Shown here in pieces: positions 5,146-44,644 of a stretch of 64,000 bases of DNA. Origin of the DNA: Thunnus maccoyii (taxonomy: Eukaryota; Chordata; Actinopteri; Scombriformes; Scombridae); assembly GCF_910596095.1 (NCBI RefSeq), contig NC_056538.1, positions 14,829,501-14,893,500 on the forward strand, given 5' to 3'. Made by a program: the position numbers and the translations under genes. The notes under the pieces were generated by a model. That model was not told the origin of the DNA. It did no database searches and worked only from the letters and a program-made list of their open reading frames with translations. Position 1 is the stretch's first letter, and every line of letters begins with the position of its first letter.

Positions 5146-5776
5146 TTATGTTGTAACTGCCAAGATAAAAGAGACAGAACATACAGTTAAAAGTACATTT
5201 CTGCTGTCACTTAGAAACCATGTAAACTGTCAAGTGATATACTTTGGTCCCAGTAGTCACATCATCATGTCAAGGCCTTTAATTCAAACCTGGACATTAA
5301 AAAAATAACAATCTCATGCCAGATTTGGACTTGAACAAAACAACAGCTTACCTTGGCAGATGAAAGGCAATTCATCAAAGCAGTGGGCATCCTGCCACTT
5401 GTAGGTGATTGACTCATTGACCCAGATGATCTTCCCACAGTGGTTGTTAACAGGGTCGATGGGGAAGCTGCTATTCCACTCACCGTTTTCAACTTCTGTA
5501 CCTGAGGTCCACATCCAGGGGACATTGCAGCCAAAGATGGATCTCTCCAGGCCGATCCACACCCCTCTCTGCAGGTTTATGTTTCCACAGTTCTCTTCCA
5601 GGAGCAACTTAACATCCTCCTGCACTGTCTCGTTGGTTATCTGAACCAGGGAGGAATTCTGTCCATGGCAGTGCTTCAGGGCACCAATCCAGGTTTTAGC
5701 GCTCTCGTAGAATCGGAGACCTGCACCATGTCAACACAAAACACAAAAGCAAGGTGAAATTTAAAGAAAGTGCATG

Positions 5777-5862
<86 letters not shown>

Positions 5863-7700
5863 TCCTCACATCCTCTGTCCTTTTCTATAAAGGCCAGTCA
5901 ACTCACCATGATATTCAGGAGTGTTTTATAGATCTTACACCAGAAGTATGCTTTGGGAATGCACAAATTTGGGAATACATTTGACTGAGGTGGATTAAAA
6001 CAATTTCTACTTTTGATAGAAATAATCTGGGTTATATTGTATTTTTTGTTGTATTTGTTGTTTTTTTTCATTAGATTGAAGAATAGAATTACTCTGAAGG
6101 TCATGGAATATTTGGTTTTCAATTTACTTATGGTTTTGAAGATAAAATATTATTATAAGGTGAATACATCTTGAAAACTACTATTATAACAACTGTAGGA
6201 CAGTTATATTGTGTAAAACAAAAGTACTTGCCTGTACTGTTGCCATCAGTAGACTTACAGGTGATAGAGTGTTGAGTAGTGTTTATTTCTGTATTGTTTC
6301 TTTTAAATTGTATGTTCACTGTCCTATTATGTATTGATGGCACAGAGAAATGTATTGTGCCTCTGTGGAAGAAAAATATACAGCTGATGAAAAAGCTTTT
6401 AAAATGTATGACACAAACATGCTGGCCCCTACAACTCATCACTGGCAGCAAATTTGAAAATCAACACTGCAGCATTACATTTTATAATTGTTATATTTTT
6501 TCTTGCTAACGAGGAGGATACACACAAGACTTATTTACCCATGAAGGTTGATACACTCGTCCTTGGCATTGAAATGTTTGCAACAGTGTTTTGCAGATTC
6601 TCCCTGTTCTGGTCCACCTAGGCAAACTTCAGAATCACTGTGACATGGCTTTACACACCCTGATAAATAGAAGCATTGAGTATTAAAAACAAAACACAGA
6701 AATGGTTAAAGTGGAACTGCAGATGCATATTGAAACCTGGACATACTTGCTGAATCCTTTTCTCTTGGCAAATGTGCAAGATTTAACTTCAATTCAAGAA
6801 ATCTTGAAAAGCAATCTTGCTAAAAACAGACAAGTGAAGAAAACAGAATTTGTCAAAAGATTTGCAGTGCTTACCTTTTACGTCCCTTAGATTTATATCA
6901 AAAGTGTTGGATTCATAGAGGAGGTTTTTCTCAAAACCTGTTTTGTTCCAGTTGTTTGGCACTTGCTTTCCCTGGGGCAGGACCATGACTTTCACGCTTT
7001 TTTTCAAGGGCTCGCAACATTTAAATTGGAAAATCCACCTGCCAGCTCTGCAATGGAGTGTAGCAATCCATTTATCAGGGCCCTCCCCGCACTCCTTGCT
7101 GAGAGTGGAATTGACTCCTCCTAGTGGCCATTGATCTCCTGTTCCTGAAACCAAGGGCAGCTGGATTGTTGCTGTAATGCAGATCACATCAGCAGTTTAG
7201 TTAGTAGTTCTTTATTGGTTTCTGTATTTCTTTACTTATTCACTAATAAAATTAATATGTTGAGGAAAATATGTAGATAGATAAATAAATACAGATGTAA
7301 AGTAATGTAATACAGTATGCTTTATTTATCACCCATTCCTGTGAATTTGTATCCTTTTTTTTGTATCTTTTTTCATTCATTATTCACATTTATGTTTTAA
7401 TCTTTTTAATTATGAATTGATTAAATGACATACTAAGTTAGCCAGGTCCACTTATGACCTTTTTATAAAAAATCTGCTGTAATATAAAATGTAATTAAAC
7501 ATAAAGGAAGAGAGATTGACAATAAAAAAAGAAACTTCTCTAAGTCCGCCCCCCAGGGCTTGGTGGCTAGATACCACTATATGTAGGTGAAGAATTGTTA
7601 GTTTTTTTATTTCTATTTGGGTGAACTGTCCCTTAATAGATTCTAATAAGGCAGTTATGAACATACCCAGCAGCAGTGGTAGATAGATCAAATGTGCCAT
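5146..7700 (-). CDS. Secreted C-type lectin-domain protein, copy 1
   Basis: Six coding exons on the minus strand: 7700-7667, 7171-6875, 6659-6539, 6362-6232, 5720-5352 and 5156-5146. Together they give 963 bases, 320 residues and TAA. Exon 1 starts MAHLIYLPLLL and continues into exon 2 as a hydrophobic signal peptide of about 20 residues. Exon 2 (residues about 12-111) is a cysteine-containing N-terminal region of unknown fold. Exon 3 is short and cysteine-rich. Exon 4 has several N-glycosylation sequons. Exon 5 (about 195-317) is the lectin domain, with VWIGL, WMW, six cysteines, WQDAHC and PFICQ. The usual EPN or QPD sugar-choice motif is replaced by DPV, so Ca-dependent sugar binding is uncertain. 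The last exon adds only Val-Thr-Thr. There is no transmembrane segment, so it is probably a secreted, heavily glycosylated recognition protein. Intron 4 has a GC donor (CAG|GCAAGT). All phases join; no stop or frameshift is seen. The family name is not recognised beyond the lectin domain. Confidence 0.85.
5780..5857. repeat. (CA)n microsatellite in lectin copy 1 intron 4
   Basis: About 39 CA units with one GC interruption. The equivalents in units 2 and 3 have different lengths (24641-24691 and 42582-42641), so it is a ready copy-specific marker. Confidence 0.95.
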
Positions 7701-9500
7701 GACCTGTAAACATACAGAAAAAAAAGTTTAAAGTGTGAGGAAAGAACACACCTGAGATGCAGATCACTGAGCTCATATCAAAGGGAATTTCATAAATAGA
7801 TGTGTCAGGTGCCTCTAACATGGTGTTAAATTTACATAACCAAACGGCGTGACTGTGTCCAGCTGTGAGAACAGTTAAGTGATCCTCAGTCAGCTTTCAG
7901 ATTTTGAAATTTCTTTGCAGACAGCACATCACAGTGGTGATAATGACCCACTGATCAGATCACATGACTAACTGTGACTTGATGGTGCACCCATTAGCTG
8001 ACAAAGGTCCACAAATCTCTTTTGGTAAAATAGATTCCCCTCCGCAGAGGATGACCAAATATCCAATGTGGATTTTGGAAACAGCTAAACTACTGCACTA
8101 ATAATTTAGTTCTCTTAAGACTTCAACTGGTGAGTGGTGGGCTACTGGCCACACAGAACACAGTGTGCTCCTCTTATTGTCTAAACACATGAAAGGAAAA
8201 CAGTACTAAAAAAAGAATTCTAATTTGCATAAGTCTTTGCATTTGCTTTGAGTTGCAAAAGAACAGACAATGGGCTTTATTTTCGTGGAGGTGCAACGAC
8301 CAGTGCAAGCAGCGCTCCGACACGCTTTGTGTGTCTGTGTGGTATTTTTGGTCACCAGCGCAGAGCGCATGGTGCACAAGTGGGAGGTTCATTCAAATGA
8401 AGCAGCACAAAGACAGATGTTGTATTTTGGGTGAAGTTTGGTCCTGTTTCTAGCGCAACGTCAATCCGCTGATGCTTTAGTGATTTTATCAACAGAATCA
8501 AACTAAATACTTGCTGCTGAAGTGTTGCAACAACGTATTGATGCTTAAAATATAAATTATGTATTTCAATTAAACACCCTTCAACCAAAATCGGCACAGA
8601 TAATAACGTTTAATGTGGTTGAAGCAGAAAAAGCCAGTTAATCAGTTTGCATTGATCTATAAATGAATGTAGGTGATTCTTACAGTATTTGCTGTCGACA
8701 GCTGTTTATACTGTATGAGAAGCCTCTCATTCAGTTCATTAAATCTCTGCAGCATCTAAGGGCAGCAGGACAGATATGTTGATAAATCCGCAGCCTCTGA
8801 GAAGTGTCGCGCCAGAGCGCAGTGCTTTTACGCACGGCCGTTCACTGTAAAGTACCTGTTGTCACCAGGCTGATACAGTATAATCACACACACCTCTACA
8901 AACATCAGTCTGGTCGGTTATAATTCGATATTCTGCTTTTTTATGAAGGAGACGTCGGGTTAGCAGCTCATCAGCCTCTTCTCTAACTTTCTTTTTGGCA
9001 AAAATAGCGTCTCATATTTTATCCTTGAAACACATCGTGGTGCAAACGCTGTTGTATAACATTAATTACTTAACTAAGTGACCAATACAATCGTATAAAC
9101 GGCTTCACCAAATCAATTTCTTTATTTTCTATTTCTGTCGATATTATAGTAACTAACTGATGAAAAAAACCTACTCCAGCTGTCTTTGGTTACAGATTTG
9201 TGGTGATGTGTGTTCATGTTGTGACGCTCTGAACCATCCAGACATTTAATGAAGAAAAGCTTTCCGTTTGTTGAGTTGTCGTTATCACGTTTAACTGTGA
9301 TTAATTTGATACAACTGTGTCAGAGCTTTGAGAGCAGTGATGTGACTGGCTAAGAGCTGATCTTTATTCACCTTCACTCATACATGAACCACAATAGCAG
9401 CTGCGTATGGAGACGCCCAAACAGTCCGTGCGCCTGCGGTGAAAATAGGTCCCAATATGTTAAAGTAAGTAAAATTGGAGTATTAAAGTGTCATGAAATA
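7701..9500. other. Upstream region of lectin copy 1, arm of an inverted repeat
   Basis: No coding exon upstream of the lectin ATG was identified; a 5'UTR exon cannot be excluded. Much of 7760-9480 recurs in inverted orientation at 12540-13216, with the part corresponding to about 8480-9350 missing there. The block 8780-8860 is locally CpG-rich (GTCGCGCC, ACGCACGGCCG) in otherwise AT-rich DNA and could belong to a promoter or to a transposon. It is duplicated at 26712-28640 and 44645-46900. Confidence 0.5.
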
Positions 9501-11230
9501 GATTTTTGTAGAATTTTAATATGACAGACAAACACCTAATGTTTATTACAAAGTGTAACATCACAAGGAAATAAGTTTTTTTTAATCATCCACAGTTTTC
9601 TCCAATTTAAATATCTATTTTACTGAATTCATACATTTGAATGAAATAATTCAACAGGATTAACCAAACTGAATACAGTGTCTTTTATTATATTAAAGCT
9701 GTTTTAATGTATAATAAACTTACCCAATCAATGAGGACTCATAACTGGCTCTCCTGATTGTGATGGCAGGGTGGGCAGGGAAATATAAACAGCTTTTACA
9801 GTACATCACTTTATAAAGCTGTGTACCTCTTCCGCTTTAAGAAACACACCCACACATGGATACTCATTTGTTTAAAAGGTGTGTCTTGCAGCTGAAAAGT
9901 CAGCCTGTCTAGTTAGGTGACTACGGTAATTAAATACCAAAGACACAGTATTTTTCCTGCAGTCCAACTGTCTTTTAATAAATCACTAAGGTGTATGCAT
10001 ATGGGCTCCCCGAGCTCTGCAGCAAGAGGAGCCCCTTGAACAGCTCACACAAACACTTTATACTTCCAGCCTCCATCCAACACAACCGTCAACACAAGCA
10101 CCTTGTGTGCAGTCACACTTCACTGTCTGCAGACACCTGTTTCCTGCAAGATAATCAATAATGATACCAAATGGAGTCATGCTGGTCTTGTACAGTTTCT
10201 AGTTCTTCAACAATCACTTCTTAGGGTCGGGGTCACACCGCGTATCATGCACTTTAGCACCTTTCCTATTTCTTCTTTCCTAACAGACGAGACATTCATT
10301 TCACCTGCACAAACAAAGTGCGAGACATCTTGGCAAGACATTTTGCTTAAAACAGAACAATATGATTATAACATATAAAGGTCAATAGACAGGCTCAATA
10401 GTGCATCATGTTCTTTAAGGACAAAACTGATTGGTTGAATATACTTCTATACCAGATTAATGATCATCAAAATATTATACAATAATATAGTAATTTCTCC
10501 AACAGTACACTGTAATTAATTTACTGTTATTCACCTGTGGGGCGAGCAACAGTAAATTAAAAAAAATCCCTGCAGACACATTGCATGTGTAATTTGGATA
10601 CGGTATGTATTTTCTTAAAAAAATGGAATTTTGGACATGGGGCTGTGAGGCTAGGAAGCGGGACAGCTCAGAGTACTGCTGGAATGACTACCGTGATCTG
10701 CGCTATCATCTTCTGACGCTGTGGTGTAATTTTATGAGTCTCATGAGTTGCTAAACGGAAAAGAACCTAATGGCGCAGAATGATTATGACAAGTATCATA
10801 AGTAATAAGTAGTAGTATGTTGAATTGTCATTATAATGAATATATAACCTCACAGACCACATATAATCAATGAAAGGGCACAAAAAAATGTTAAAAGAAT
10901 CTCACTTAATGCACTGGATAAACTGGAGGGTATGTTTGTGTTAAACTTCACTTTAAATGTGTGTTAAACTTCACTTTGAAATGTGTTTGTATCAAACTCA
11001 GTGTTTCAAAAAAAAAAGGAAAAAAAAGAGTGACTGTGGGAAAGGAGCAAGAAAAAGGGGGGTGTGAGGAGGCAAGTATGGCAGTGGAGAGAGAGCCAGG
11101 GGAAGCTCTGACAATAATGGTTATATGGTCCTTAGCAGTTACAAAAAATAGCTGGATGGAAATGGTCATGCCAGGTATGACCAGCTCGGGCCAAAACCTA
11201 TTTCAGAGATTTTGGGCCAACAACAGGTGA
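9501..11230. other. Repeat-derived spacer, no gene recognised
   Basis: AT-rich DNA between the inverted arms. It carries short open frames but none with recognisable protein character. It is copied nearly perfectly at about 28640-30370 and, more diverged, at 46920-48005. Confidence 0.4.
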
Positions 11231-11309
11231 CGTAAAAAAAAAAATAATATTGTGGTTGGCCATGTATGAAGAGGATGGACACAAGGCATGACCTATGCTG
11301 ACCCAAGGG

Positions 11310-11317
11310 TATATAAG
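11310..11317 (+). promoter_or_regulatory. TATA-box-like site in a transposon-derived block
   Basis: TATATAAG is followed within about 130 bases by the start of a transposon-like coding relic. The stretch about 11030-11450 looks like a retroelement-type promoter region: TATA box, then a short transcribed-leader-like segment. No matching second long terminal repeat was found, so the element class is open. The same site is at 30443-30450 in unit 2. Confidence 0.25.
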
Positions 11318-11459
11318 ACAACACCCTCAGTTGCGAAACTCAGAGCAACGGGGTGGTCTATTATGAACACTGTATTACTCTCCTTTTTTGCCTGGCATTA
11401 AAGTACATTTTTGCTGCTCAGAAACTCTGACTCCTGATTTTTGAACAACAAAGAGAAGT

Positions 11460-12490
11460 TTGGCCTTGACTTTTTTCAACAGAGACCCAGCGGAACTGAT
11501 ACGACAACGCCACACTAATGCATGCCTCATCATCTTCGTCAATGACAAATATGACCTTCTCATCAAAATCAAGGATGATGAGCACAATCGTCGGGCAGCA
11601 AAACATCGACACATCCCAAATGTTTTCCCCAATCCCGAAAACAAGTTCCCAGGAGCTGCTGAGTTCAATGAACTCAATGGTTGAAAACACAAGTTAGTCG
11701 GGTGCAGGGTGACGTCAAGGGAGAAACGTCAACCAACGTGGACACTGGCATGGCAAGCGGGGACTTTGTCTTCCAGCATCCAGAGGCAGATACAATGCTG
11801 CTCTCTGCCTATGCTAAGCTGAGGATCAGGAACTACACTAGAACAGTTGTACTAGACTGTGAGGACAGGGATGTGTTTGTCCAAGCGGCTTAGGTCTCGC
11901 AACAACTCCAAGGTGATCTGCTGATTAAATGCAAGCATGCGTTCATCAACTGCTGTGCCATGCTCTCAAAAGAGGTTGCAGACATCATCATACCTCACCT
12001 CAGGGATCTATGGGCATGAGAAGAAGAGGGTGTTGCAGAAGGCGATGACTGATCCTGAGGCAAGAGAGGTCCTGGGATGAGTGGGGGAGAATCTGGAGTT
12101 AGAAGACGGAGTCAGAGCTGATATGAAAGCATTTGTCCTCTCCATCGTCTATGCTGAGAGTGTAGATGTTACCTGCGGGCAGGCCAGAGCTTCCAAGTGG
12201 CACAAACTGAGGAAGAATTGTACAATGCGTCTGCCACCTGACGATTACTCGTTGGATCTTCATGTAGTAAGGACAAACTATATTGCATCTTGCCAGCTCC
12301 ATTACAATCTGCTCGAGCATCCCTCTCCCATTGGTCATGGCAGGGAACTCGTGAATGGGAAGTGCTGACCAGTGCATCACATCCTTCCCAATTTACCCCA
12401 GCAGTTCACACTTCATGACTGTTCAGATGAGAGTAGTAGCAATAATGAGAGGAGGGACTGTGGAGAATCAACAGATTCAGATGAAGAGTA
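11460..12490 (+). pseudogene. Broken transposon-type ORF, unit 1
   Basis: Consecutive plus-strand frames at 11460-11684, 11681-11893 and 12081-12368 read as one decayed protein with stops and shifts. Telling pieces are EADTMLLSAYAKLRIRNY, VVLDCEDRDVFVQ, then SGIYGHEKKRVLQKAMTDP (near 12005-12050) and an acidic serine-rich tail. Proteins with a GCDTTSGFYGHGKK-like motif in this setting are multi-copy, transposon-associated proteins in fish and cnidarians, from memory; the exact superfamily is not certain. At least three breaks make it non-functional. Confidence 0.55.
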
Positions 12491-12539
12491 GCGGTCCATG
12501 TCCTAATCATTGTAAAGTTGCAAATACAAAAAAATCTAT

Positions 12540-13216
12540 TTGACACTTTAATACTCCAACTTTACTTACTTTAACATAGTGGGACCTATTTTAACTGCAG
12601 GTGCATGGACTGTTTGGACATCTCCATGCACAGCTGCTAGTTTGGTTCATCTATGAGTGAAGGTGAATAAAGCTCAGTTCTCAGCCATCTGCGATGGTGA
12701 CCAAAATACTGCGCAGACACACAAAGCATGTTAGAGCGCTGCTTGCACTGGACGTTGCGCCTCCATTGTATACTGAATTTGCAACTCAAAGCAAATGCAA
12801 AGACTTATGCAAAATAGAGTTCTTTTATTACTGTTGAATGAGAGGGGAATCTATTTTACCAAAAGAGATTTGTGGGTCTTTGTCAGCTAATGGGTGCACC
12901 TACAAGTCACAGTTTGTCATGTGACCTGATCAGTGGTTCATTATCACCTTTGTGATGTGCTGTCTGCAAAGAAATTTCAAAAAATTTTTAAAGTCCAGAG
13001 TAACCCAAGTAACCGGGTTCTTGAGCTGACTGAGGATCACTTAACTGTTCTAACATCTGGACTTTGAGTACACCATAATTTAAGTATTTGACTGCCAAAG
13101 TTATAGAACAAAGAAAACAGAGTCATGCAATTTAGTTATGTAAATTTAACAACCATTCTAGAAGCACTTGAAACATCTATTTATGAAATTCCCTTTGATA
13201 TGAGCTTAGTGATCTA
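12540..13216 (+). pseudogene. Inverted copy of the lectin upstream region
   Basis: This is the reverse complement of parts of 7760-9480. It includes the segment bordering AGATCACTGAGCTC next to lectin exon 1 and the segment around TTACTTACTTTAACATA. The copy continues at 15148 after a 1.9-kb hAT-like insertion. Together with 15148-15605 it forms an inverted, disrupted duplicate of the lectin promoter, exon 1 and part of intron 1. Unit 2 has lost this part. Confidence 0.7.
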
Positions 13217-15147
13217 CAGGGATGGAGCAGCGATTTTAAAAGTGTGGGGGTTCTAGAGGTGGGACATGAGCACGGCAACCCCCTGCCCTAGAGCCCTGTT
13301 CCAGTCTCAACAAACCAAATCAAAATGAATGCCATGCATTTAAACATTTTTTTTCTACTACTGAGTGTAACAACCCAGCAGAATTTATTTAGGGTCTGGT
13401 AGCAGTTTATTACTTATATCCAGTTATTTGTATGAATTGATGTACTGGAGCATAGCTATCCTTATTATACTTAAAGTCATCACAGAATATCTTTATTTTA
13501 CTTCCTAACATACCTTATAAACATGAAATTAAAGGAAACTTACACTTCAATTAAAATTAAATGGATAGTTATTGTGATGAAGGACTTGTTTGTTTGTGTA
13601 TAATAGTAGTTTAGTCAATCAGTTGGGTAATAGGATTGTTGTAGTGGGTAACAGGGATCGGCCAATCAGCGCCCTTGTTAGTAGCAATGCAAACACTGCC
13701 GGTTGCTATGTTTTGTTTTGGTCATAGTTGCCATGGAGAACGGACAAGAGAGAGACTGCAGTCGATTATATATAGTAAATAGTGGCCACTTACGAGCTAT
13801 CCTCGCATGTGTGCGTTCAGAACAAGCGGCAATCTCTGGGGCTGTAAAATAAAGCCAATGCGGAAGTGCCAAAAACTGCAGTTCCTTGAATGGCCACTTG
13901 AGGCAGACTCCAAAAGCAAGTCATTCCCCGTAGACCCTCTTTACAGCAGAAATAAACATGGTACAAAGAACAGGTTTGGTCTCTATAGCTAATTTCCCCA
14001 TTCATGACAACTGTACGAAGGACATGGCTGCTTTGAGTGACAGGTCCGCCAGCCGCTAGATGGCTTGTTTCAGCCATTCGGCCCGCCTCTTTGCCCATTT
14101 TTGATTGGCTTGGAGCTAGGCTGTGTCACGCACTGCCATGATGGCAACGGCCGGAGCGCTCGCCTTGAGCTTCAAAACCACTCTTTAGAAACCAACGGGT
14201 AACGTCACAGTAACTACATCCATATTTTTATACAGTCTGTGTTTCAGAAACATGTAAGTGGATTGTGTAACGTAACCTTCTGTGCCTTTGAGTTTATATT
14301 AGCAATGTGAATATGTTTGGTTCAGATCAAAGCTATTAGCATAAAGTCCGCTAGCCACATGCTAACACTTGCTATAGTAATTGTAATCAGTGGCTGTTAC
14401 TGCCATGGTGGGAATGTAATTGCTCACATATTCTGATATTCGTACTCTAGCTGTACCACTGTGCATGTTAGGATTAACAGTGATGTCATGATTATTATTG
14501 AAGTACCTTATGACGGCGGCGGTCTCATGCTAAAGTGTACGTGGCTTTGTAATACAAGTGACTTGCTAATCAGCAGTTTACCTCAAGGTTAAGTAGAGTT
14601 ATGAGAGGTGCTGTTAGGATTTATTAGCATTAGCACTACTTAATGATTCCTGTCAGCAGTGTTGCTGCCTGTGAGCTAATGTTGTTCGTTTATTCTTGTT
14701 TGTAGAACCACACACACCTGTATATACCTACCTGTTGGTATTAATAAACCATTGAAGAGAGCATCCCAGCATCCCTTTGCCGATGCACCACAGTGGTCAC
14801 CTACCCCCTAACTAGCTACAGGTACAGTTTGAGCTATCATCCTCCATTACAGTTAACAAATCAGTATCTTCAAATAATTGGCTTAAGAACATTAACAATT
14901 ACAGGTTCAACCTGAAAATGTATTATGTTGCCCTTAAAACATAAAGAGTCATTTCTGAGTCCATGGACTAGTACAACCTAAACTGTCTACAATTTTTAAA
15001 AAAAGTGTCTCTTTTAGTAGGAATCCAAATGGGACCTTTAATTGTTTTTAATTGGGAAATTACATACCCAAAGTTGTCCAGTTTTTATGTTTCTGTGAAA
15101 GTGCGGTTGTCACAACACCCGTAACACCCATGGCTGCGACGTGCCTG
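13217..15147. mobile_element. hAT-like element with 8-bp target duplication, unit 1
   Basis: The ends are CAGGGATGGAGCAGCG at 13217 and, inverted, GGCTGCGACGTGCCTG ending at 15147. The flanks are GTGATCTA (13209-13216) and GTGATCTG (15148-15155), an 8-bp target duplication with one mismatch, as expected of hAT elements. The ends match the second hAT-like element at 21381-23058, in opposite orientation. No transposase frame is visible, so it is non-autonomous. Foreign repeat DNA is nested inside, including a block at about 13830-14250. Confidence 0.75.
13830..14250. repeat. Unidentified repeat nested in the hAT-like element
   Basis: A GC-richer block begins near GGCTGTAAAATAAAGCC and ends near TTTTTATACAGTCTGTG. 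It is recognisable as a type of dispersed fish repeat, but I cannot name it. It recurs in unit 2 at about 31775-32190 with a 15-base insertion. Confidence 0.35.
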
Positions 15148-15605
15148 GTGATCTGCATCTCAGATTTTTTTTCCTCACATTTTAAACTTTTTTTTCTATA
15201 TGTTTACAGGTCATGGCACATTTGATCTATCTACCACTGCTGCTGAGTATTTTGCGAACTGCCTTATTAGAATCCGTTAAGGGACAGTTCACCCAAATAA
15301 AAAACAAAACAAAACAATTTCTTCACCTGCATCTAGTGGTATCTAGCCATGCAGATATAGTTAGGATTTACTTAATTGTGTTTCGAGATATCTGACATTT
15401 CAATCACCATCCCAATGAAACAGAAGTGAATGGAATTTAGTTTGTGGTGCTCACTGAAAAATTACATTTAAAAAATGTGTTGTCTCATCCACAGGTCTGT
15501 GGATTATCTGAAGTAACAGGAACACTGCAATTTAGGTGGCAGGCACTTTAATGGAGGGATTTTTGTTAATCTCTCATTAATCTCTCTTCCTTTATGTTTA
15601 GTTAC
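15148..15605 (+). pseudogene. Inverted relic of lectin exon 1, unit 1
   Basis: The plus strand carries a copy of lectin exon 1 at 15213-15246, reading MAHLIYLPLLL, preceded by the same acceptor-like TGTTTACAGGTC context. It is followed by a donor changed to A|GTATTT and by about 350 bases matching lectin intron 1. No exons 2-6 follow in order, so it cannot make the lectin. It is the far side of an inverted duplication interrupted by the hAT-like element at 13217-15147. Confidence 0.7.
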
Positions 15606-18332: not shown

Positions 18333-18385
18333 ATTAAATAATAATAATGATAATAACAATAATAATGATAATAATAATAATAATA
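18333..18385. repeat. (AAT)n-type microsatellite
   Basis: Imperfect AATAATGATAATAA run. The identical tract is at 36281-36333 in unit 2. Confidence 0.8.
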
Positions 18386-24018: not shown

Positions 24019-24639
24019 TTATGTTGTATCTGCCAAGATAAAAGAGACAGAATATACAGTTAAAAGTACATTTCTGCTGTCACTTAGAAACCATGTAAAC
24101 TGTCAAGTGATATACTTTGGTCCCAGTAGTCACATCATCATGTCAAGGCCTTTAATTCAAACCTGGACATTAAAAAAATAACAATCTCATGCCAGATTTG
24201 GACTTGAACAAAACAACAGCTTACCTTGGCAGATGAAAGGCAATTTATCAAAGCAGTGGGCATCCTGCCACTTGTAGGTGTTTGACTCATTGACCCAGAT
24301 GATCTTCCCACAGTGGTTGTTAACAGGGTCGATGGGGAAGCTGCTATTCCACTCATTATATTCAACTTCTGTATCTGAGGTCCACATCCAGGGGACATTG
24401 CAGCCAAAGATGGATCTCTCCAGGCCGATCCACACCCCTCCCTGCAGGTTTATGTTTCCACAGTTCTCTTCCAGGAGCAACTTAACATCCTCCTGCACTG
24501 TCTCGTTGGTTATCTGAACCAGGGAGGAATTCTGTCCATGGCAGTGCTTCAGGGCACCAATCCAGGTTTTAGCGCTCTCGTAGAATCGGAGACCTGCACC
24601 ATGTCAACACAAAACACAAAAGCAAGGTGAGATTTAAAG

Positions 24640-24697: not shown

Positions 24698-26711
24698 TCC
24701 TCACATCCTCTGTCCTTTTCTATAAAGGCCATTCAACTCACCATGATATTCAGGAGTGTTTTATAGATCTTACACCAGGAGTATGTTTTGGGAATGCACA
24801 AATTTGGGAATACATTTGACTGAGGTGGATTAACATAATTTCTACTTTTGATAGAAATAATCTGGGTTATATTGTATTTTTTGTTGTATTTGTTGTTTTT
24901 TTTCATCAGATTGAAGAATAGAATTACTCTGAAGGTCATGGAATATTTGGTTTTCAATTTACTTATGGTTTTGAAGATAAAATATTATTATAAGGTGAAT
25001 ACATCTTGAAAACTACTATTATAACAACTATAGGACAGTTATATTGTGTAAAACAAAAGTACTTGCCTGTACTGTTGCCATTAGTAGACTTACAGGTGAT
25101 AGAGTGTTGAGTAGTGTTTATTTCTGTATTGTTTCTTTTAAATTGTATGTTCACTGTCCTATTATGTATTGATGGCACAGAGAAATGTATTGTGCCTCTG
25201 TGGAAGAAAAATATACAGCTGATGAAAAAGCTTTTAAAATGTATGACACAAACATGCTGGCCCCTACAACTCATCACTGGCAGCAAATTTGAAAATCAAC
25301 ACTGCAGCATTACATTTTATAATTGTTATATTTTTTCTTGCTAACGAGGAGGATATACACAAGACTTATTTACCCATGAAGGTTGATACACTCGTCCTTG
25401 GCATTGAAATGTTTGCAACAGTGTTTTGCAGATTCTCCCTGTTCTGGTCCACCTAGGCAAACTTCAGAATCACTGTGACATGGCTTTACACACCCTGATA
25501 AATGGAAGCATTGAGTATTAAAAACAAAACACAGAAATGGTTAAAGTGGAACTGCAGATGCATATTGAAACCTGGACATACTTGCTGAATCCTTTTCTCT
25601 TGGCAAATGTGCAACAGACATTTACTGTAAGATTTAACTTCAATTCAAGAAATCTTGAGAAGCAATCTTGCTAAAAACAGACAAGTGAAGAAAACAGAAT
25701 TTGTCAAAAAATCTGCAGTGCTTACCTTTTACGTCCTTTAGATTTATATCAAAAGTGTTGGATTCATAGAGGAGGTTTTGGTCAAAACCTTTTTTGTTCC
25801 AGTTGTTTGGCTCATGGCATCCCTGGGGCAGGACCATGACTTTCACTTTTCTATCCAAGGGCTCGCAACATTTCAGTTTGAAAATCCACCTGCCAGCTCT
25901 GCAATGGAGTGTAGCAGTCCATTGATCAGGGTGCCTCTTGCACTCCGTGCTGAGAGTGGAATTGACTCCTCCTAGTGGCCATTGACTTGCTTTTCCTGAA
26001 ACCAAGGGCAGCTGGATTGTTGCTGTAACGCAGATCACATCAGCAGTTTAGTTAGTAGTTCTTTATTGGTTTCTGTATTTCTTTACTTATTCACTAATAA
26101 AATTAATATGTTGAGGAAAATATGTAGATAGATAAATAAATACAGATGTAAAGTAATGTAATACAGTATGCTTTATTTATTCCCCATTCCTGTGAATTTG
26201 TATCCTTTTTTTTGTATCTTTTTTTCATTCATTATTCACATTTATGTTTTAATCTTTTTAATTATGAATTGATTAAATGACATACTAAGTTAGCCAGGTC
26301 CACCTATGACCTTTTTATAAAAAATCTGCAGTGATATAAAATTTAATTAAACATAAAGAATCTTTTAAAAAACTAACAAAACCCCCCATTAAAGTGCCTG
26401 CAACCTAAATTGCAGTGTTCCTTTAACCTCAGATGTGGATTAGACAACACTTTTTTGAAATGTAATTTCAAAAAAGCACCACAAACTAAATTCCATTCAC
26501 TTCTGTTTCATTGGGATGGTGATTGAAATGTCAGATATCTCAAAACACGATTAAGTAAAACCTAAATATATTTGCATGGCTTGATACCACTAGAGGTGGG
26601 TAAAGAAACTGTTTTTTAAATTTTTATTTGGGTGAACTGTCCCTTAACGGATTCTAATAAGGCAGTTATGAACATACCCAGCAGCAGTGGTAGATAGATC
26701 AAATGTGCCAT
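24019..26711 (-). CDS. Secreted C-type lectin-domain protein, copy 2
   Basis: Six exons with the same sizes as copy 1: 26711-26678, 26022-25726, 25494-25374, 25197-25067, 24593-24225 and 24029-24019. They give 320 residues with no stop or shift. Exon 2 differs from copy 1 at about 21 of 99 residues and has an extra cysteine (LPQGCHEPNN). Exon 3 is identical in protein and exon 4 has one change. The lectin domain has about six changes (for example SDTEVEYNEW). The C-terminus is Asp-Thr-Thr instead of Val-Thr-Thr. The GC donor of intron 4 is kept. The role is as for copy 1; the N-terminal changes suggest a different binding partner. Confidence 0.85.
24641..24691. repeat. (CA)n microsatellite in lectin copy 2 intron 4
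   Basis: Uninterrupted CA run, shorter than in copies 1 and 3. Confidence 0.95.
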
Positions 26712-31625: not shown

Positions 31626-31695
31626 GGTCCATGTCCTAATCATTGTAAAGTTGCAAATACAAAAAAATCTATTTCATGTCACTTTAATACTTTTT

Positions 31696-33550: not shown

Positions 33551-34879
33551 TACATTTTTATTACTCGGCTTTGTTGAATACTCAATTACGGCATTCTATG
33601 GTCTGTTATTTCTGAATAGCAGGCTGCTGCCATGAATAGCAGACTGTTGCTAAGGATGCAATTCTGTTCATAGTCTCTGGAGGACCATGTCAAATCATAT
33701 CAGAAAGAAGTCCAGTTAAATTACCAACTACAGCTCATTCGCAACACGTTGTGGTAAAAAAAAATGTTTGCGACAATGTCTGTGACTGGGCACAGATGTG
33801 ACAGCAGCCCGAACAGCTACTGGGCTCCAACCATTACAGAAAGAGAAAAGTTTAGCAAGATCCTGTCCTCCAATCCAGGCAACAGCAGCAGATCTGGTGA
33901 GCGCCTCTCTTAGTTGTGTATCACTACACACTGACTTAAGTGATAAAAGGTAGTGATAGGCTAATATTAATATTGTTACCAGTTGAAACATTAGTAGCAA
34001 TTGTGTTTCCAGGTGTGTCAACTGCAAAGCCCTGCCAGGAAGGAAACAGATGAGTGACAGAAACGTCATGATCTTAAGAAGGCTACAGAGCTTTCATAGA
34101 TATTTACGTTGCTATGCACGCAGTTCCAACAGTAGAATCTAACAGACAATTTTTTAGCGGAAGCAATAAAATAATTTTTAAATCAATATTTTGTCAGATT
34201 ATTGATTTCTTTAGTAAATAGCCCTGTTATAAGCAGGACAATATACAGCAAGTGGGTCATTATTGCAAAAAGAACCCCAACAGAGTGATGCAGGACCAAG
34301 ACGCGAAGTGGAGCGCTCGCTGTAGACATTATCCCTTACTTATATCACTGCAGATTTTTTATAAAAAGGTCATAGGTGGCCCTGGTTCACTTAATATTGT
34401 AATAAATCTGAGTTCGAATAGAGACCAGAAGTTATGTAGGGTAAATGTCAGAGACCTCAGAACAAACAATACCTGACCACAAAGAATAGCAGGCAAAGCA
34501 ATAATCTTTATTAAATTAAGATCAATTAGAAAAGGGTCCAAGGAATTTGACTAGATAGGAGAGTTATCAAACTTTAGGGGGGGGGATCAGGACTAGACAC
34601 ACTATAAAAAATATACACACCAACATCCAGGGATGCAAAACACACATCAGGGATAAGACCACATCACTACAGACTTGAGAACCCGTCACACTACACACAG
34701 TGGAGTTACACTTTTAAGTTATAAGAAAGAGGGTGCGACCAATACAAAGTCTCCCCACGCCCGGGACCTAACTCAACCCCACCCAGCTTGTGGCAACATC
34801 CAACTCGGGGCACCACAGCTCCATCGAAAAACAACAAAAACAACAAAAAATACAATATAACCCAGATTATTGCTATCAA

Positions 34880-35080
34880 AAGCAATAATGATGCTAATCC
34901 ACCTCATACATACTTAAATATTGTTTAAATGTATTCCCAAATGTGTGCATTCCCAAAGTATACTCCTTGTGTAAGATCTATAAAACACTCCTGGATATCA
35001 TGGTGAGTTGACTGGCATTTGTAGAAAAGGACAGAGAATGTGAGGATGTGCAGTGTGTGTCTCTCTGTGTGTGTGTAAAT
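34880..35080 (+). pseudogene. Inverted fragment of lectin intron 4, unit 2
   Basis: Counterpart of 16930-17130; reverse complement of part of lectin intron 4. Confidence 0.6.
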
Positions 35081-35939
35081 GTGTATTCTGTAAATATAAA
35101 CACCTTCCACAAATACAAAAAAAGATTTGTAAGCTCACAAAAATATTTTGCAAATATAAAACGGATGTGCAAATACAAACTAATTTCTCAAATAAAAAAT
35201 AATATCTGTGAATACATTAAATTAATTTAAAAATAAATGAAAAGCATTTGTGAATATCTTCCTAACATTTACAACTTTCCAACAGGAATCTTTATTTGTG
35301 AATCGACAAAACATTTGTGGATCTCAGTTCTACGCTTGTGGATTTGCTTTTTACACGCATTTTACACGAGTATTGAGACAAACATTCCGCTGGTCCGAAT
35401 GAAAATCCACTCGTATCACTCCGTCATTTTCGGATAGCACGTGATCACCTGCTGACGACGTCATTTCCGCATTTCCAAGTAAGAGCATGCAGTCTTTCTA
35501 TGCTTTCTATGAGCTGTTTTTTTTTCCGGCGATAAGTAACGTGCATTTATTGTTTTATGTTAATGTCATACAGTGAGTATTAGTGTGTGTTTATTTGTTT
35601 TATGTATATTATCTAGCTCACACTTTCGTATACATTCTGTTTGAGTATGAAGGGCTCGAGGATGCTTGTGGGCTCTCCAAAGCAGCTTGGTTGCTTCTTC
35701 AGTTAGCAGCTAGCAGCCACCTCATCCTTTATATTTGTCATTTATTCTTTCAGGTGGGTAAAAGTCACAAAGCACTTCACATCTTATTAGTAGTCTACTC
35801 TAACTAATGTAGTTCTAATGTCTGTGCTGAACCGAACCGTGTTTAGTTAGATAGGTGTTTTGTTTGTTTTATTCTCTCCACAACCGTGCACCTGATAGAC
35901 TTGGAACTGTGCACACCGCTACTTCTTACTAGATCAACA

Positions 35940-36125
35940 GCCAATGGTTTCCATGGCAATTACATGAAAACCTTTGTTTCCAAAGAGGTAAATGAATGAG
36001 AACAAATAAATGTTACAAAATCCATTTTAAAAAGTAATCAAGTACAAAAGACACATACACAGACAAATGTGCACAGAAAGTATGAAAGCTGAAAGAAAAT
36101 TATCATTCGTCCATATCATAAACTT
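35940..36125 (-). repeat. Inverted copy of the 3'UTR of the unrecognised gene, unit 2
   Basis: Counterpart of 17990-18175, matching the 3' end of the sequence at 3760-3950. Its direct-orientation partner lies at about 39085-39185. Confidence 0.65.
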
Positions 36126-37767
36126 ACAATACACAGAAAAACTAATCTGCCCATGATAGCGATACATTGACAAAACAGCTATAAACAAATCACAATGTAA
36201 GCTCTCCTCTTTGTGGTCTTGATTTGATCTTTGTGATCTTGTTTCCCTCGAAACTAAACAAAAAAAAAGAAAAGAAAAAAATTAAATAATAATAATGATA
36301 ATAACAATAATAATGATAATAATAATAATAATACCATATATGGTTTCACCTACATTTATGTTGAGAAGTCTACAATTGTCTACAATTCAGTATGAAGTTT
36401 TTTAGGAATCAACAGTCAGATTTTTGTTTCATGAAAGTATTATCATATCTTGTGATACTTGCTGTTCATTTTAAGGTTCATTACAGTTTTTCCACTCCCA
36501 TGTGTTTAGTTGAGGAGAAACACCCTGCTTAGGGCAGAACTGAGTAGAGTTGAATTTGAAAAAATGCAGACGTCCACAGGTGTTGTCAACCTGCTTATTG
36601 AGACCGCAACTTATAAATTTCATGCAGTTGAAAGACTAAACAAAATCTGGCCTAGCATTGTTGTGTGACATGGTGAGTGCATAGCATGTCTTACAAACAT
36701 GAGGGTGCAGGTCCAATTCCACCCATTGCTGATTTTAATCTTAATCTAGATTTTTCAATAGCGTTCAGCTTCCAGTAATGCAAAAATAAATCAGCTTTCA
36801 GCAATCACACGCAATTTCTTCAGAAATTGCATTTTCCAGTTATCAAATCAGATTCCTCCACGATCCCTAAACACCAATTGCGACTCAGCTGTCAAACTTT
36901 AAAATCTGTTTCCCTCTCTGTCACTGTCAGCTGTCATTCCAGAGCAATCATCGAGACTCAGTGGGTCATGCTGCTGCATGCGTGCATCTGTCGTCATGCA
37001 AGTCGTTGTATCAGTACGCCACAAGCTATGATCTGAATACGGCCTACTCATATCAAGGTTGCTCCTCTGCCTCTTATCTCATTTCCCTGCTTTTTGGCTA
37101 TCCTTTGCATCGTCATTGGCCTTTTCCCATCATAGGGGACGTTGGCCCTTCTCCCTGCTTCATGTAATATCCTTTTCATTCTTCTCACACCTTGAGTCTG
37201 CATATTTTGGAGCATCCTAACACTATGTCTTTGCAATGGTCTTTGACTAGCTGGTTATCATGGTACTACAATCAATGTATCAACACATCTGCTTCTGTTA
37301 TTAGGGCTACTGGGTGTGTCCCCCCAGACTGACACTGTTTTATGTCAACTTTTTCACCATCCAGATGAATCACAGGCTGCAGTTCTACTATGGAAAGGGG
37401 GACAATTACCTGGTAATGTGCAACAGTCTGTGGCCTTTTGTCTCTTATTGTCTAAAAGTCTAAGAAATGTATTCATTTTTTGTCACCATTTTTTCATTTG
37501 CTAGTTTTACTATATAGTTATACAATATAATATCATCATTCATTAATTCATATGTAATTTATATTTCATTTGGAGTTCCTAGTGACTAAATATTCTATTG
37601 CTATTCACTTATGATTTCATAAACACAAAATTGAATCGCATGTATCAACCTTTCATTACACATTATTCATCATTTCTTAAATTTGTACCAGGATAAAATC
37701 CAAATCTAGTGCTCTATTTGTTTCTAGCAGATAATTATTAATCACCAGATTCAATTTTAATTTTGGG

Positions 37768-39005
37768 GATGCATTTCATTGCAAAAAGAATACAAACTGT
37801 TGCATCAAAGCCTAGTTTTGAGTCAACTCCAGTCAGTCAATTGTCAAAAAAGACAATGCAAAAAGCAAGAGAAAAAGAAAGAAAAGAAAAATAATCAAAA
37901 CAGAAATTTAAACACTTTAAATGTGCAAGAGGACATACCCAGTCACACAAAATTCTATTTAGATAAAGGATATTTTTAAAAATTGTTTTAAATGTTATTA
38001 AAGAAGATGACGACTTCACAGTTGTATTTAGTGAATTCCAGAGATGAGGACCTCTAAATTTGATAAAAAAATAATGATTGGAAGTGCGACAATAAGGTAA
38101 ATGAAAGTCCTTTGATCGCCTCATTGAAGAAGAGTGAATGTCTGACAATAAAAGGAAAAAATTATGAAATGTATCTGGAAAGTTTTGCCTGTGATATATG
38201 AATTTGAACATAAACACACATGTTAGAAGAGTATTTACAGAATAAACTTACAAAATTTTAAATTTCCTAAACAAAGGTGCAGATGGCTCTTGGCTAGTGG
38301 AGTTTGAAATCATTCTCAAAAACCTTTTTTTGGATTAAAAGTAACTGAATGAGGTGTGAAGGATATGTAGCAGCCCAAACAATATTACAATAATTGATGT
38401 ATGGATACATTAGACTATAATACAGGGATAAATAAGAGGAAGGACGAATCAGAGAACAAGCTTTCCTCAATATTCCAATCATTTTCATTGACCTTTTGCA
38501 AACATGTTCAATATGTTTTTTCCAAGTTAGTCTTTCATCAAAAATAACTTTAACTTTAACCGTTTCTGTATCATTAATGAATATTTTAGCGTCATCTTTA
38601 AAATATTTTTTGTTTTTATTGCAAAATATCATAAAAGTAGATTTTGTTCATCCGAAACCATTTAGAAATGAAGGACATTCCATTGTTTGCATGCTGGATT
38701 AGTGCTTTGAAATCATCATGAGTAACTATGAGATTAGTATCATCAGCAAATACAATAGGAAAAAAAAATCTTTGCAAACCACAGGCAAGACATTAATGTA
38801 AATCAAGAATAGAAGTGGACCAAGGATAGAACCTCGGGGTAATCCACAAAGTAATTTTAATCTATTTGAGATGCAATCATTTATGGATACAAATTGTTCT
38901 CTATTGTTTAAATAATATAATAGTAATATTGTGATTAACTGTGTCAAATGCTTTGGATAAGTCTAAAAAGGTGCCGAGTGAATGCCGAGCTGAGTGAATA
39001 CAGAG
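37768..39005 (-). pseudogene. LINE reverse-transcriptase relic, unit 2
   Basis: Duplicate of the relic in unit 1. The C-terminal part is better preserved here, as one open frame (38217-37837) with SNHYFFIKFRGPHLWNSL, a typical LINE ORF2 end. The reverse-transcriptase core is broken as in unit 1. Confidence 0.8.
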
Positions 39006-39181
39006 TGGTAACAAACTTCCACCTACACCTCCTTCATCCATGTTGTTAGATCTCAACCACACTCTTTGGAAATGAAAAGTATTTGTTGTATACGGTCAAT
39101 GATGTAAACACAGAGATAAAAAAAAAAACTGAAGGGTGGATTCCAGCGACAAGCTGATATCTTCTCTTTGCTGCACAGAAG

Positions 39182-39324
39182 AATATGATAAGAATGGTGT
39201 TCTTCAGACTTGGCAAGTCTGAAGAACAAGTGATTCTACAAGTCTATGAAATCTACTGGATGAACACCATTCTTCAAAAAGATATTCCCTCATTTGGTGT
39301 TTTGATGATGGTGGTGGAGAGCGC
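39182..39324 (-). mobile_element. Tc1-like element, part split by hAT, unit 2
   Basis: Counterpart of 21236-21380. Continues at 40999. Confidence 0.7.
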
Positions 39325-40998
39325 CAGGGGCGTCGCAGCCGTGGGTGTTACGGGTGTTGTGACACCCGCACTTTCAAAGAAACATAATTCCAGCCCCCCC
39401 ACTTTTTCTGTGGTAGTCCTTGATGAACCAAAACTGAGTTTCCTATACATGAAAAACCTATTGGTCAAGTTAGATTAATTGAAAAGCCATCCAGCCAAGC
39501 ACAGCCATTGACCAACCCACCAGGCCAGGGAAGAGTAAACAGTTAAAGTAAAGTTACATTTGTGCATTCAGCAACGGTGCTTCTGTTACTGGCTGCTGGC
39601 TGTGATAACAGATCAGAGGTATGAAACAGCTATTTAACTAGTTAGTAATGTAGAATTTTCTTTTGTAACTTTGTCTTATTATGTGATGTGTCAGCTCAGC
39701 TAACATCATTGAACATAAATGAAATAGGCTATCCTAAATGTAAGTCCGGTGGCAAATTTGTTTTAGTCACTTCTATTGTCTGTTTTTTAAATAAATAAAT
39801 ATTTTTTTAAAATAGTCATAGTCAAAGGTGAGCATTCATATTTAAGATGTGTAACATCTGTCTGTCTTATGGCAATGTGTTGCCTGCCGTATGGTAAAGT
39901 CTTAACGACCAAATTAATGTTTATTAGCATGCTAATCGCTAATTGTGAGTTAAGCTAATCGCTAATTAGCCACCATGCTAGGCGGACTTTAGCAAGAATA
40001 TTTACCTCTGTGTCCAGAATGTAAACTCACATAGTTCATACTATTTTAAGCTAAATGTCAAAGGAATATGTTGCTTTACATGTCATAGTTTTACTCCTTA
40101 TGTCAGGGAGTAATGTGTGTTTTGCATTTAATATAAGTTAGAATGAGCTATAGTTTGTATTGTGTATTAAAGCTAGACCACAGTAATATTACTATTTATT
40201 ATTGAGCTTAAAAAGGGTTCAGATGGTTGTAGGTGTGGCAGTTAGCCTGTGAGAGCAAGTTGCTCACTCTCTGCACTCACTAGACTCAAATCACCTGCTT
40301 ATGTGATATTCTCCTGTTAGCTTTTAGGTGGACTTCAGATGAAGAGGGACTGCTTGTTCCCTGTGGCTGTTGGAGAGGAACTGACGCCTGCTGATACAAA
40401 ACCTCCTGGACAACTTTTGGTATTTAATTTCCCAATTATAGACAATTAAAGGTCCCCTTTGGATTCCTACTAAAAGAGACACTTTTAAAAAAAAATGAAG
40501 ACAGTTTAGGTTGTACTAGTCCATGGACTCAGAAATGACACTTTACTGTTACTGATTCGTTACCAGGGTTCAATTTGTTATGCATCTATAACTATCTTAT
40601 TCATTTTAATGGAAGTGTAAGTTTCCTACAATTTCATGTCTATAAAGTATGTAAGGAAGTAAAACAAAGATACTCTGTGATGACTTTAAGTATAATAAGG
40701 ATATGCTCCAGTACAGCAATTCATACAAATAACTGGATGTAAGTAGTAAACTGCTGTGAGACCCTAAATAAATTCTGCTACACTCTATTCTTGTTACACC
40801 CATATGGTCTCAGTAATTATTTTATGGTAAGCTGAAGCAGTGGTTACAACTTCAGTAGTAGAAAAAATTGTTTAAATGCATGGCATTCATTTTGATTTGG
40901 CATGTTGAGACTGGAACAGGGCTTGAAGGCAGGGGGTTGCCGTGCTCATGTCCCACGTCTAGAACCCCCACACTTTTAAAATCGCTGCTCCACCCTTG
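39325..40998. mobile_element. hAT-like element inserted in Tc1, unit 2
   Basis: Same insertion as 21381-23058, with the GAGAGCGC duplication at 39317-39324 and 40999-41006. It is four bases shorter through small indels. Shared position shows the insertion predates the tandem duplication. Confidence 0.85.
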
Positions 40999-41380
40999 GA
41001 GAGCGCTGTCTAACACGTCAGTCCTAAATCTCCCATCAGTGTTTAATTGGGTTGAGTTCTAGTGACTGCGAAGGCCATAACATATGATTCGCATCATTTT
41101 CATACTCATCAAACAATTCAGTGACCCCTTGTGCCCTGTGAGTTGGGGCGTTGTCATCCTGGAAGAGACCACTCCGGTCAGGATAGAAATGTTTCATCAT
41201 AGGATAAAGGTGATCACTCAGAACACCTTTGTATTGATTTGCAGTGACTCTTCCCTCTAAGGGGACAAGTGGACCCAAACCATGCCAGCAAAATGCCCCC
41301 CACAGCATAACAGAGCCACCAGGTCCCCTCACTGTGGGGATTAAGCATTCAGACCTGTACCAGTTTTTCCTTTAATGTGT
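40999..41380 (-). pseudogene. Tc1-like transposase fragment, unit 2
   Basis: An open 98-codon frame (41332-41036) covers the catalytic core: VMLWGAFCWHG, DDNAPTHRAQ and a SQSLELNPIKH end. Only the last third of a transposase remains, because the hAT-like insertion removes continuity with the rest. Confidence 0.8.
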
Positions 41381-41959
41381 CAACCACCTGTATATGTGAC
41401 ATTATCTTGAAAGATTTAACTCTTAAGGTAAAGGAAAGTGTTGAAAGATTAACTAACATCTTTTTTTTTTTTTTACCTTTTCATGGGATTTGTTGATGGA
41501 AAATATTGCCAGCCTTGTCCTTGTGTGTGTGTGTTTGCTGAGTGACACTCTCAAGTTATCTTCTATGAAATATTTCAGGTAAATACCCACCATCGTTAAG
41601 GTGGAAAAGGGTGATCATCCTGGGCCCTGGATTTTTAATAGTGTAGATATGTTGTTCATGTTTTTGTTAGTAAATATGTATAAACCAATATAAGAGAAGG
41701 AAAAGGTGAAATAATTGATCAAATCGATATAGTTTTTATTGGATGAATGATAATAAACAAATGCTTACGTTACATTACTCACAGTACCTACATATTACAG
41801 AGAAAAAAAGTTATTGGAAAGGGTATACTGAGTATAAAAACAGTATGAAAAAATCTTAGGTCTATTCAAATATAATCAATGTCAAAGGGAGAAGATGGAG
41901 AAGAGGAGGAAGAATTTGAATATGACTCTTGTAGTTAGCAGTCCTCCAGTATACAGTCT

Positions 41960-42580
41960 TTATGTTGTATCTGCCAAGATAAAAGAGACAGAATATACAG
42001 TTAAAAGTACATTTCTGCTGTCACTTAGAAACCATGTAAACTGTCAAGTGATATACTTTGGTCCCAGTAGTCACATCATCATGTCAAGGCCTTTAATTCA
42101 AACCTGGACATTAAAAAAATAACAATCTCATGCCAGATTTGGACTTGAACAAAACAACAGCTTACCTTGGCAGATGAAAGGCAATTTATCAAAGCAGTGG
42201 GCATCCTGCCACTTGTAGGTGATTGACTCATTGACCCAGATGATCTTCCCACAGTGGTTGTTAACAGGGTCGATGGGGAAGCTGCTATTCCACTCATTAT
42301 ATTCAACTTCTGTACCTGAGGTCCACATCCAGGGGACATTGCAGCCAAAGATGGATCTCTCCAGGCCGATCCACACCCCTCCCTGCAGGTTTATGTTTCC
42401 ACAGTTCTCTTCCAGGAGCAACTTAACATCCTTCTTCACTGTCTCGTTGGTTATCTGAACCAGGGAGGAATTCCGTCCATGGCAGTGCTTCAGGGCATCA
42501 ATCCAGGTTTTAGCGCTCTTGTAGAATCGGAGACCTGCACCATGTCAACACAAAACACAAAAGCAAGGTGAGATTTAAAG

Positions 42581-42646
<66 letters not shown>

Positions 42647-44644
42647 TCCTCACATCCTCTGTCCTTTTCTGTAAAGGCCAGTCAACTCACCATGATATTC
42701 AGGAGTGTTTTATAGATCTTACACCAGGAGTATGCTTTGGGAATGCACAAATTTGGGAATACATTTGACTGAGATGGATTAACACAATTTCTACTTTTGA
42801 TAGAAATAATCTGGGTTATATTGTATTTTTTGTTGTATTTGTTGTTTTTTTTCATTAGATTGAAGAATAGAATTACTCTGAAGGTCATGGAATATTTGGT
42901 TTTCAATTTACTTATGGTTTTGAAGATAAAATATTATTATAAGGTAAATAGATCTTGAAAACTACTATTATAACAACTGTAGGACAGTTATATTGTGTAA
43001 AACAAAAGTACTTGCCTGTACTGTTGTCATCAGTAGACTTACAGGTGATAGAGTGTTGAGTAGTGTTTATTTCTGCGGTGTTTGTTTTAAATTGTATGTT
43101 CACTGTCCTATTATGTATTGATGGCACAGAGAAATGTATTGTGCCTCTGTGGAAGAAAAATATACAGCTGATGAAAAAGCTTTTAAAATGTATGACACAA
43201 ACATGCTGGCCCCTACAACTCATCACTGGCAGCAAATTTGAAAATCAACACTGCAGCATTACATTTTATAATTGTTATATTTTTTCTTGCTAACGAGGAG
43301 GATACACACAAGATTTATTTACCCATGAAGGTTGATACACTCGTCCTTGGCATTGAAATGTTTGCAACAGTGTTTTGCAGATTCTCCCTGTTCTGGTCCA
43401 CCTAGGCAAACTTCAGAATCACTGTGACATGGCTTTACACACCCTGATAAATAGAAGCATTGAGTATTAAAAACAAAACACAGAAATGGTTAAAGTGGAA
43501 CTGCAGATGCATATTGAAACCTGGACATACTTGCTGAATCCTTTTCTCTTGGCAAATATGCAAGATTTAACTTCAATTCAAGAAATCTTGAAAAGCAATC
43601 TTGCTAAAAACAGACAAGTGAAGATAACAGAATTTGTCAAAAAATCTGCAGTGCTTACCTTTTACGTCCCTTAGATTTATATCAAAAGTGTTGGATTCAT
43701 AGAGGAGGCTTTTCTCAAAACCTATTTTGTTCCAGTTGTTTGGCTCATGCTTTCCCTGGGGCAGGACCATGACTTTCACTCTTTTTTTCAAGGGCTCGCA
43801 ACATTTCAGTTTGAAAATCCACCTGCCAGCTCTGCAATGGAGTGTAGCAGTCCATTGATCAGGGCGCTTCCCGCACTCCGTGCTGAGAGTGGAATTGACT
43901 CCTCCTAGTGGCCATTGACTTGCTTTTCCTGAAACCAAGGGCAGCTGGATTGTTGCTGTAACGCAGAATACATCAGCAGTTTAGTTAGTAGTTCTTTATT
44001 GGTTTCTGTATTTCTTTACTTATTCACTAATAAAATTAATATGTTGAGGAAAATATGTAGATAGATAAATAAATACAGATGTAAAGTAATGTAATACAGT
44101 ATGCTTTATTTATCACCCATTCCTGTGAATTTGTATCCTTTTTTTTGTATCTTTTTTTCATTCATTATTCACATTTATGTTTTAATCTTTTTAATTATGA
44201 ATTGATTAAATGACATACTAAGTTAGCCAGGTCCACCTATGACCTTTTTATAAAAAATCTGCAGTGATATAAAATTTAATTAAACATAAAGAATCTTTTA
44301 AAAAACTAACAAAACCCCCCATTAAAGTGCCTGCAACCTAAATTGCAGTGTTCCTTTAACCTCAGATGTGGATTAGACGACACTTTTTTGAAATGTAATT
44401 TCAAAAAAGCACCACAAACTAAATTCCATTCACTTCTGTTTCAATGGGATGGTGATTGAAATGTCAGATATCTCAAAACACGATTAAGTAAAACCTAAAT
44501 ATATTTGCATGGCTTGATACCACTAGAGGTGGGTAAAGAAACTGTTTTTTAAATTTTTATTTGGGTGAACTGTCCCTTAACGGATTCTAATAAGGCAGTT
44601 ATGAACATACCCAGCAGCAGTGGTAGATAGATCAAATGTGCCAT
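41960..44644 (-). CDS. Secreted C-type lectin-domain protein, copy 3
   Basis: Six exons: 44644-44611, 43955-43659, 43443-43323, 43146-43016, 42534-42166 and 41970-41960. They give 320 residues, all frames open. Exon 2 is a mosaic: its first part matches copy 2 (SGKASQWPLGG), other positions match copy 1 (EPLKK), and some are private. Exon 4 has private changes (KTNTAEINTT). The lectin domain keeps WQDAHC and DPV and starts LRFYKSAKTWIDALKHC. The terminal residues are Asp-Thr-Thr. The GC donor of intron 4 is conserved. Confidence 0.85.
42582..42641. repeat. (CA)n microsatellite in lectin copy 3 intron 4
   Basis: CA run of about 29 units. Confidence 0.95.

Follow-up and report, generated by a model that had tools for sequence, protein, structure and literature searches.

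Replacement divergence concentrated in exon 2 of three tandem genes for apparently secreted C-type lectin-like proteins in Thunnus maccoyii

The window analyzed here is a stretch of 64,000 nucleotides from Thunnus maccoyii (contig NC_056538.1, 14829501-14893500), and comparing it with itself revealed three copies of a single unit, spaced approximately 19 and 18 kb apart (98.5% match between 7899-12555 and 27001-31691, and 98.1% between 13762-28361 and 31696-46249). Each unit carries one minus-strand gene, and the three tandem genes, termed c1, c2, and c3, are all intact. By using a six-exon model, wherein all five introns begin with GT and end with AG and phase is correct throughout in every copy, we obtained open reading frames for three proteins of 311 residues each. 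Exon 2 encodes residues 12-110, exon 3 residues 111-151, and exon 4 residues 152-185, followed by a C-type lectin-like domain (CTLD) at residues 186-308. The exons are as follows.

7667..7700, minus strand: c1 exon 1, start of the signal peptide (judged by eye)
6875..7171, minus strand: c1 exon 2, end of the signal peptide and hypervariable N-terminal domain
6539..6659, minus strand: c1 exon 3, Cys-rich, the same in all three copies
6259..6362, minus strand: c1 exon 4, Asn-rich linker preceding the CTLD, GT donor
5352..5720, minus strand: c1 exon 5, CTLD in a single exon (Pfam Lectin_C, E 6e-10)
5146..5156, minus strand: c1 exon 6, final codons and stop
26678..26711, minus strand: c2 exon 1
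25726..26022, minus strand: c2 exon 2, hypervariable, extra Cys at residue 80
25374..25494, minus strand: c2 exon 3
25094..25197, minus strand: c2 exon 4
24225..24593, minus strand: c2 exon 5, CTLD
24019..24029, minus strand: c2 exon 6
44611..44644, minus strand: c3 exon 1
43659..43955, minus strand: c3 exon 2, 1 of 30 two-state sites private
43323..43443, minus strand: c3 exon 3
43043..43146, minus strand: c3 exon 4, with private replacements in three codons
42166..42534, minus strand: c3 exon 5, CTLD, five private charge-changing replacements
41960..41970, minus strand: c3 exon 6

A five-exon model without exon 4 was rejected because the donor after exon 3 is then not GT. A second possible donor for exon 4, a GC that keeps the frame, lies 27 nt further along and would move the end of the c1 exon to 6232. 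We prefer the GT donor because the sequence Cys-Leu-Arg-Phe then precedes the CTLD, and a sequence of this type is the usual start of such domains. Several early tests, among them those marked below, were run on the five-exon model or on introns that still included exon 4; the codon counts for exon 2 and the CTLD are unaffected, and the main intron-anchored test was repeated on the six-exon model. The proteins are apparently secreted, judging from a hydrophobic leader identified by eye as a signal peptide.

The c1 protein matches Pfam Lectin_C (PF00059) over residues 193-308 with 40.2 bits against a cut-off of 22.6, and the solved chains nearest to the CTLD, which is encoded by a single 369-nt exon, are the CTLDs of lithostathine, langerin, and tetranectin. 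Canonical calcium-dependent sugar-binding C-type lectins carry an EPN or QPD motif together with a WND motif. By eye, these motifs are absent from the CTLD of the three copies, all of which read FPI and WQD at the corresponding sites (in a presumed register to mannose-binding protein). It is therefore unlikely that the CTLD binds monosaccharides in the ordinary calcium-dependent manner. The rest of the protein, exons 2 through 4 included, gave no Pfam match above the cut-off. A designed PPR repeat protein was the best PDB match both for exons 2 and 3 (E 0.0048) and for exons 2 through 4 (E 0.019), with no single stretch passing alone in either case, and was taken as chance. Structure prediction from three rows returned a mean pLDDT of 45.5 for the N-terminal domain, which is too low for use of the fold, and of 45.8 for the CTLD.

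Divergence among the copies is distributed very unevenly over these exons. In exon 2, c1 and c2 have different residues at 21 of 99 positions (29 nonsynonymous and 1 synonymous differences; dN 0.136, dS 0.016), c1 and c3 at 15 (16 and 1), and c2 and c3 at 12 (16 and 0). Exon 3 has no differences at all among the three copies, and the CTLD exon differs at 6 (c1/c2), 9 (c1/c3), and 7 (c2/c3) of its 123 residues. For c1 and c2, these counts agree with an earlier note made from the letters of this DNA, which had put them at about 21 of 99 residues in exon 2, none in exon 3, and about six of 123 in the lectin exon. Its count of one change in exon 4 depends on the splice site, there being one (D to N) with the GC donor and none with the GT donor. 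Altogether, 37 of the 311 codons vary, 22 of them in exon 2, three in exon 4 (through c3), 11 in the CTLD, and one in exon 6. Every one of the 37 holds a replacement and none holds a silent difference. Pairwise divergence in introns 2 through 5 is 1.27-1.59% over 942 columns, a count that excludes a microsatellite and the stretch by which exon 4 might be extended. The description of exon 2 changes as charge-altering is borne out, since 14 of 22 codons change charge compared with an expected 38% (p 0.014), but their supposed clustering is not significant (p 0.09). In the CTLD, 8 of 11 variable codons change charge compared with an expected 35% (p 0.013). A Cys at residue 80 occurs only in c2 and a glycosylation sequon at residue 87 only in c1.

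To relate these counts to a neutral rate, we used a codon model in which branch lengths are shared with the introns, applied to the three copies from this one genome. Intron-anchored ω is 8.2 for exon 2 (likelihood ratio statistic against 1, 54.0), approximately 0 for exon 3 (at the lower bound; 3.4, p 0.066), 2.2 for exon 4 (1.3, not significant), and 2.5 for the CTLD (5.9, p 0.015, uncorrected as one of four partition tests). The exon 2 value exceeds that of the CTLD (13.5), and it remains at 4.0 (14.5) when the codons of exon 2 that differ at more than one nucleotide (8 of 99) are omitted. Other tests agree: exon 2 replacement differences between c1 and c2 exceed intron differences with a Fisher p of 1e-11 (five-exon model, exon 4 counted as intron), site model M2a is favored over M1a by 49.3 (five-exon model), and the chance of finding zero silent codons among 34 variable codons is 9e-6 (five-exon model). 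Diversifying selection on exon 2, which the earlier note had proposed as one of two causes, is thus strongly supported, and neither silent nor intron divergence matches the replacement divergence of this exon. The note's further claim that selection acts on the N-terminal domain rather than the lectin domain is too strong. The CTLD replacements and the CTLD ω count against such exclusivity, as does c3, which diverged mainly in exon 4 and the CTLD and accounts for three replacements among three variable exon 4 codons. Exon 2 is the hottest region, yet the CTLD is also affected.

The evidence is weaker when the silent sites of exon 2 serve as the sole yardstick. Fisher p values for replacement against silent differences within the exon are 0.005 (c1/c2) and 0.019 (c2/c3), and the c1/c3 comparison is not significant by this measure (0.085). 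The copies have probably exchanged DNA in the past, in which case the introns may not keep a uniform clock. Differences in noncoding DNA are distributed in patches over the unit, with none of 20,000 shuffles giving as few runs (exon 4 counted as noncoding); c1 stands out most in the flank 3′ of the gene and on approaching the 5′ part of intron 1, and c3 in two upstream stretches. As had been noted, the introns around exons 2 through 5 are nearly identical, whereas a 5′ portion of intron 1 (approximately 7507-7640 in c1) cannot be aligned with c2 and c3. Exon 2 is not the sole divergent stretch of the unit. Windows of exon 2 length that lie off exon 2 and are equally divergent number 279 of 7,021 for c1/c2, with a peak at 7329 that adjoins the unalignable section of intron 1 (the next best separate window has 10 mismatches compared with 30), 430 of 3,696 for c1/c3 (peaks near 7406 and 8912), and 162 of 13,639 for c2/c3 (peaks near 28013 and 27265). 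The peaks adjoin the unalignable section of intron 1 or fall in upstream noncoding sequence, and the exon 2 differences persisted or rose inside an otherwise similar gene body. Dense noncoding differences private to c3 are found upstream of the gene at 8191-8218 and 8981-9148 (c1 coordinates), the latter adjoining the point where c3 ceases to match.

Signs of exchange raise the possibility, also voiced in the earlier note, that exon 2 of c1, c2, or both was overwritten via gene conversion from a more divergent paralog. Patchy noncoding differences would accord with such an event, as would the adjacent codons that changed together at two or three bases (40-42, 68-70, and 80-82). However, a divergent donor is expected to bring silent changes, and none of the 22 variable exon 2 codons has one. 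Moreover, states resembling c1 and c2 alternate along c3 exon 2 in 14 runs over the 30 sites, without long tracts (p 0.18). Nor did we find a donor: a protein search with c1 exon 2 of the whole 782-Mb genome (54 contigs, with only the best candidates scored) recovered the three copies plus a single weak match, and a DNA search of the genome gave the three copies only. The weak match aligns at 34% over 49 residues, with an E of 1.59 genome-wide and 4e-7 when its own 3.1 kb is searched alone. No credible exon 3 or CTLD match lies beside it in that 3.1 kb, and its frame up to the stop matches no Pfam family above the cut-off (best 14.0 bits). It was taken as chance, although it could be a very distant relative. 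Among 113 pattern matches in viral contigs, none encodes a relative. With no donor among the candidates scored and no silent changes, we regard donor conversion as very improbable. Mutation bias, GC-biased gene conversion, or relaxed constraint, the last of which is common in duplicated genes, is hardly credible as the cause, since relaxation raises ω only as far as 1 compared with approximately 8 in exon 2, the exon 2 changes run 11 towards GC and 11 towards AT (taking the majority base as old), all frames are open with exon 3 unchanged, and a mutation hotspot would need to strike replacement sites alone.

Different copies have changed in different domains. At the two-state sites of exon 2, c1 has 15 private changes, c2 has 14, and c3 has 1, compared with 5, 8, and 7 in introns 2 through 5. 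In exon 4 and the CTLD together, c3 holds 9 of 17 private changes, as against 1 of 30 in exon 2 (p 1e-4). Branch-specific ω values for exon 2 are 14 (c1), 10 (c2), and 0 (c3, at the lower bound), which improves on a single ω by 10.2 (p 0.006). For the CTLD, the branch values of 3.7 (c1), 1.1 (c2), and 3.2 (c3) do not differ significantly (p 0.42). Hence exon 2 took most of the changes in c1 and c2, and exon 4 and the CTLD most of those in c3. The c3 exon 2 is closest to the common form and may be ancestral-like, as read from a tree of three copies without a root. The same pattern would arise from a fine mosaic of c1 and c2, although many exchanges within 300 bases would then be needed.

We consider it probable (approximately 0.8) that positive selection after duplication fixed almost only amino acid changes in three recent tandem duplicates of a secreted lectin-like gene. 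The gene would have triplicated recently in tandem, each copy encoding an exon 2 N-terminal domain of no known family, an invariant Cys-rich segment (exon 3), an Asn-rich linker, and the CTLD. Selection would then have driven replacements mostly into the N-terminal domain in the case of c1 and c2 and into the linker and CTLD in the case of c3, with exon 3 held fixed. It is reasonable to infer that the N-terminal domain is a contact surface, as the earlier note had suggested, whose binding partner changes over time or differs between copies. Our working model is that of a secreted recognition protein in which the N-terminal domain may make the variable contact. A coding exon that outpaces its own introns severalfold, in a gene where none of 37 variable codons shows a silent difference, is an exceptionally clear example of selection favoring change, and a small, apparently secreted domain without a known family is a likely site of an arms race. 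The pattern suggests that the copies have been pushed apart to bind different targets. More tentatively, the exon 2 region may be an undescribed binding domain and the array a small recognition repertoire, wherein each duplicate diversifies another part of a conserved scaffold. Three natural variants are available for partner finding.

No description of this gene was found in the literature searched on the topic with the terms used. The array resembles other tandem families in which replacement divergence exceeds intron divergence. Mammalian trappin multigenes, which are duplicated genes of host defence, evolve faster in their coding regions than in introns and flanks, with positive selection reported in the pig paralogs (PMC2831891). 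Coding sequence outpaces introns after duplication in both cases, although trappins belong to another protein family with TGS and WAP regions, and the abstract and headings of that report mention no CTLD (PMC2831891). The SSSGP clusters of Hessian fly are likewise clustered secreted genes with slow, conserved introns and flanks and a fast, diversified mature coding region, for which positive selection together with homogenisation has been invoked (PMC2955719). As described there, these are insect salivary genes whose mature region is highly diversified, unlike the array, in which one mature exon is fixed (PMC2955719). Among fish, the antifreeze-like AFPL pair of Fugu also consists of tandem CTLD genes (PMC514892). 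By description, three intron insertions split its CTLD-encoding region, whereas the array has a one-exon CTLD after an N-terminal domain and thus lacks the introns inside this region that mark the type II antifreeze-like group (PMC514892).

As a first guess, held at about even odds, the partner of these proteins would be microbial surfaces met in innate defence. Selection arising instead from reproduction, through gamete or brood interaction, seems unlikely by comparison, although C-type lectin paralogs in male brood tissue of pipefish do shift expression in pregnancy, and differentially expressed brood genes as a class show faster coding divergence (PMC3853555). Against a reproductive role, no indication of tissue was found in the window.

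Further features of the window include inverted relics on the plus strand. Those at 15148-15617 and 33094-33565 comprise exon 1 and part of intron 1, approximately 84% like c2 and c3, with no exon 2 match beside them. A third, at 12842-13572, joins the 5′ flank of the gene (12842-13218) to its 3′ side (13213-13572), which would fit an additional copy whose body has been lost. Positions 624-2519 hold a degenerate, GC-rich minisatellite whose periods are 80-123 and 368 bases. On the minus strand at 49380-59092 lies a neighboring gene like glutamate carboxypeptidase II, in which transferrin-receptor-like dimerisation and peptidase M28 pieces score above the cut-off and a PA piece below it. Finally, a fragment like DDE-superfamily transposases, just under the Pfam cut-off, is present on the 3′ side of c3 (41039-41371, minus strand), and similar DNA recurs at 23067-23439 and 51342-51684.
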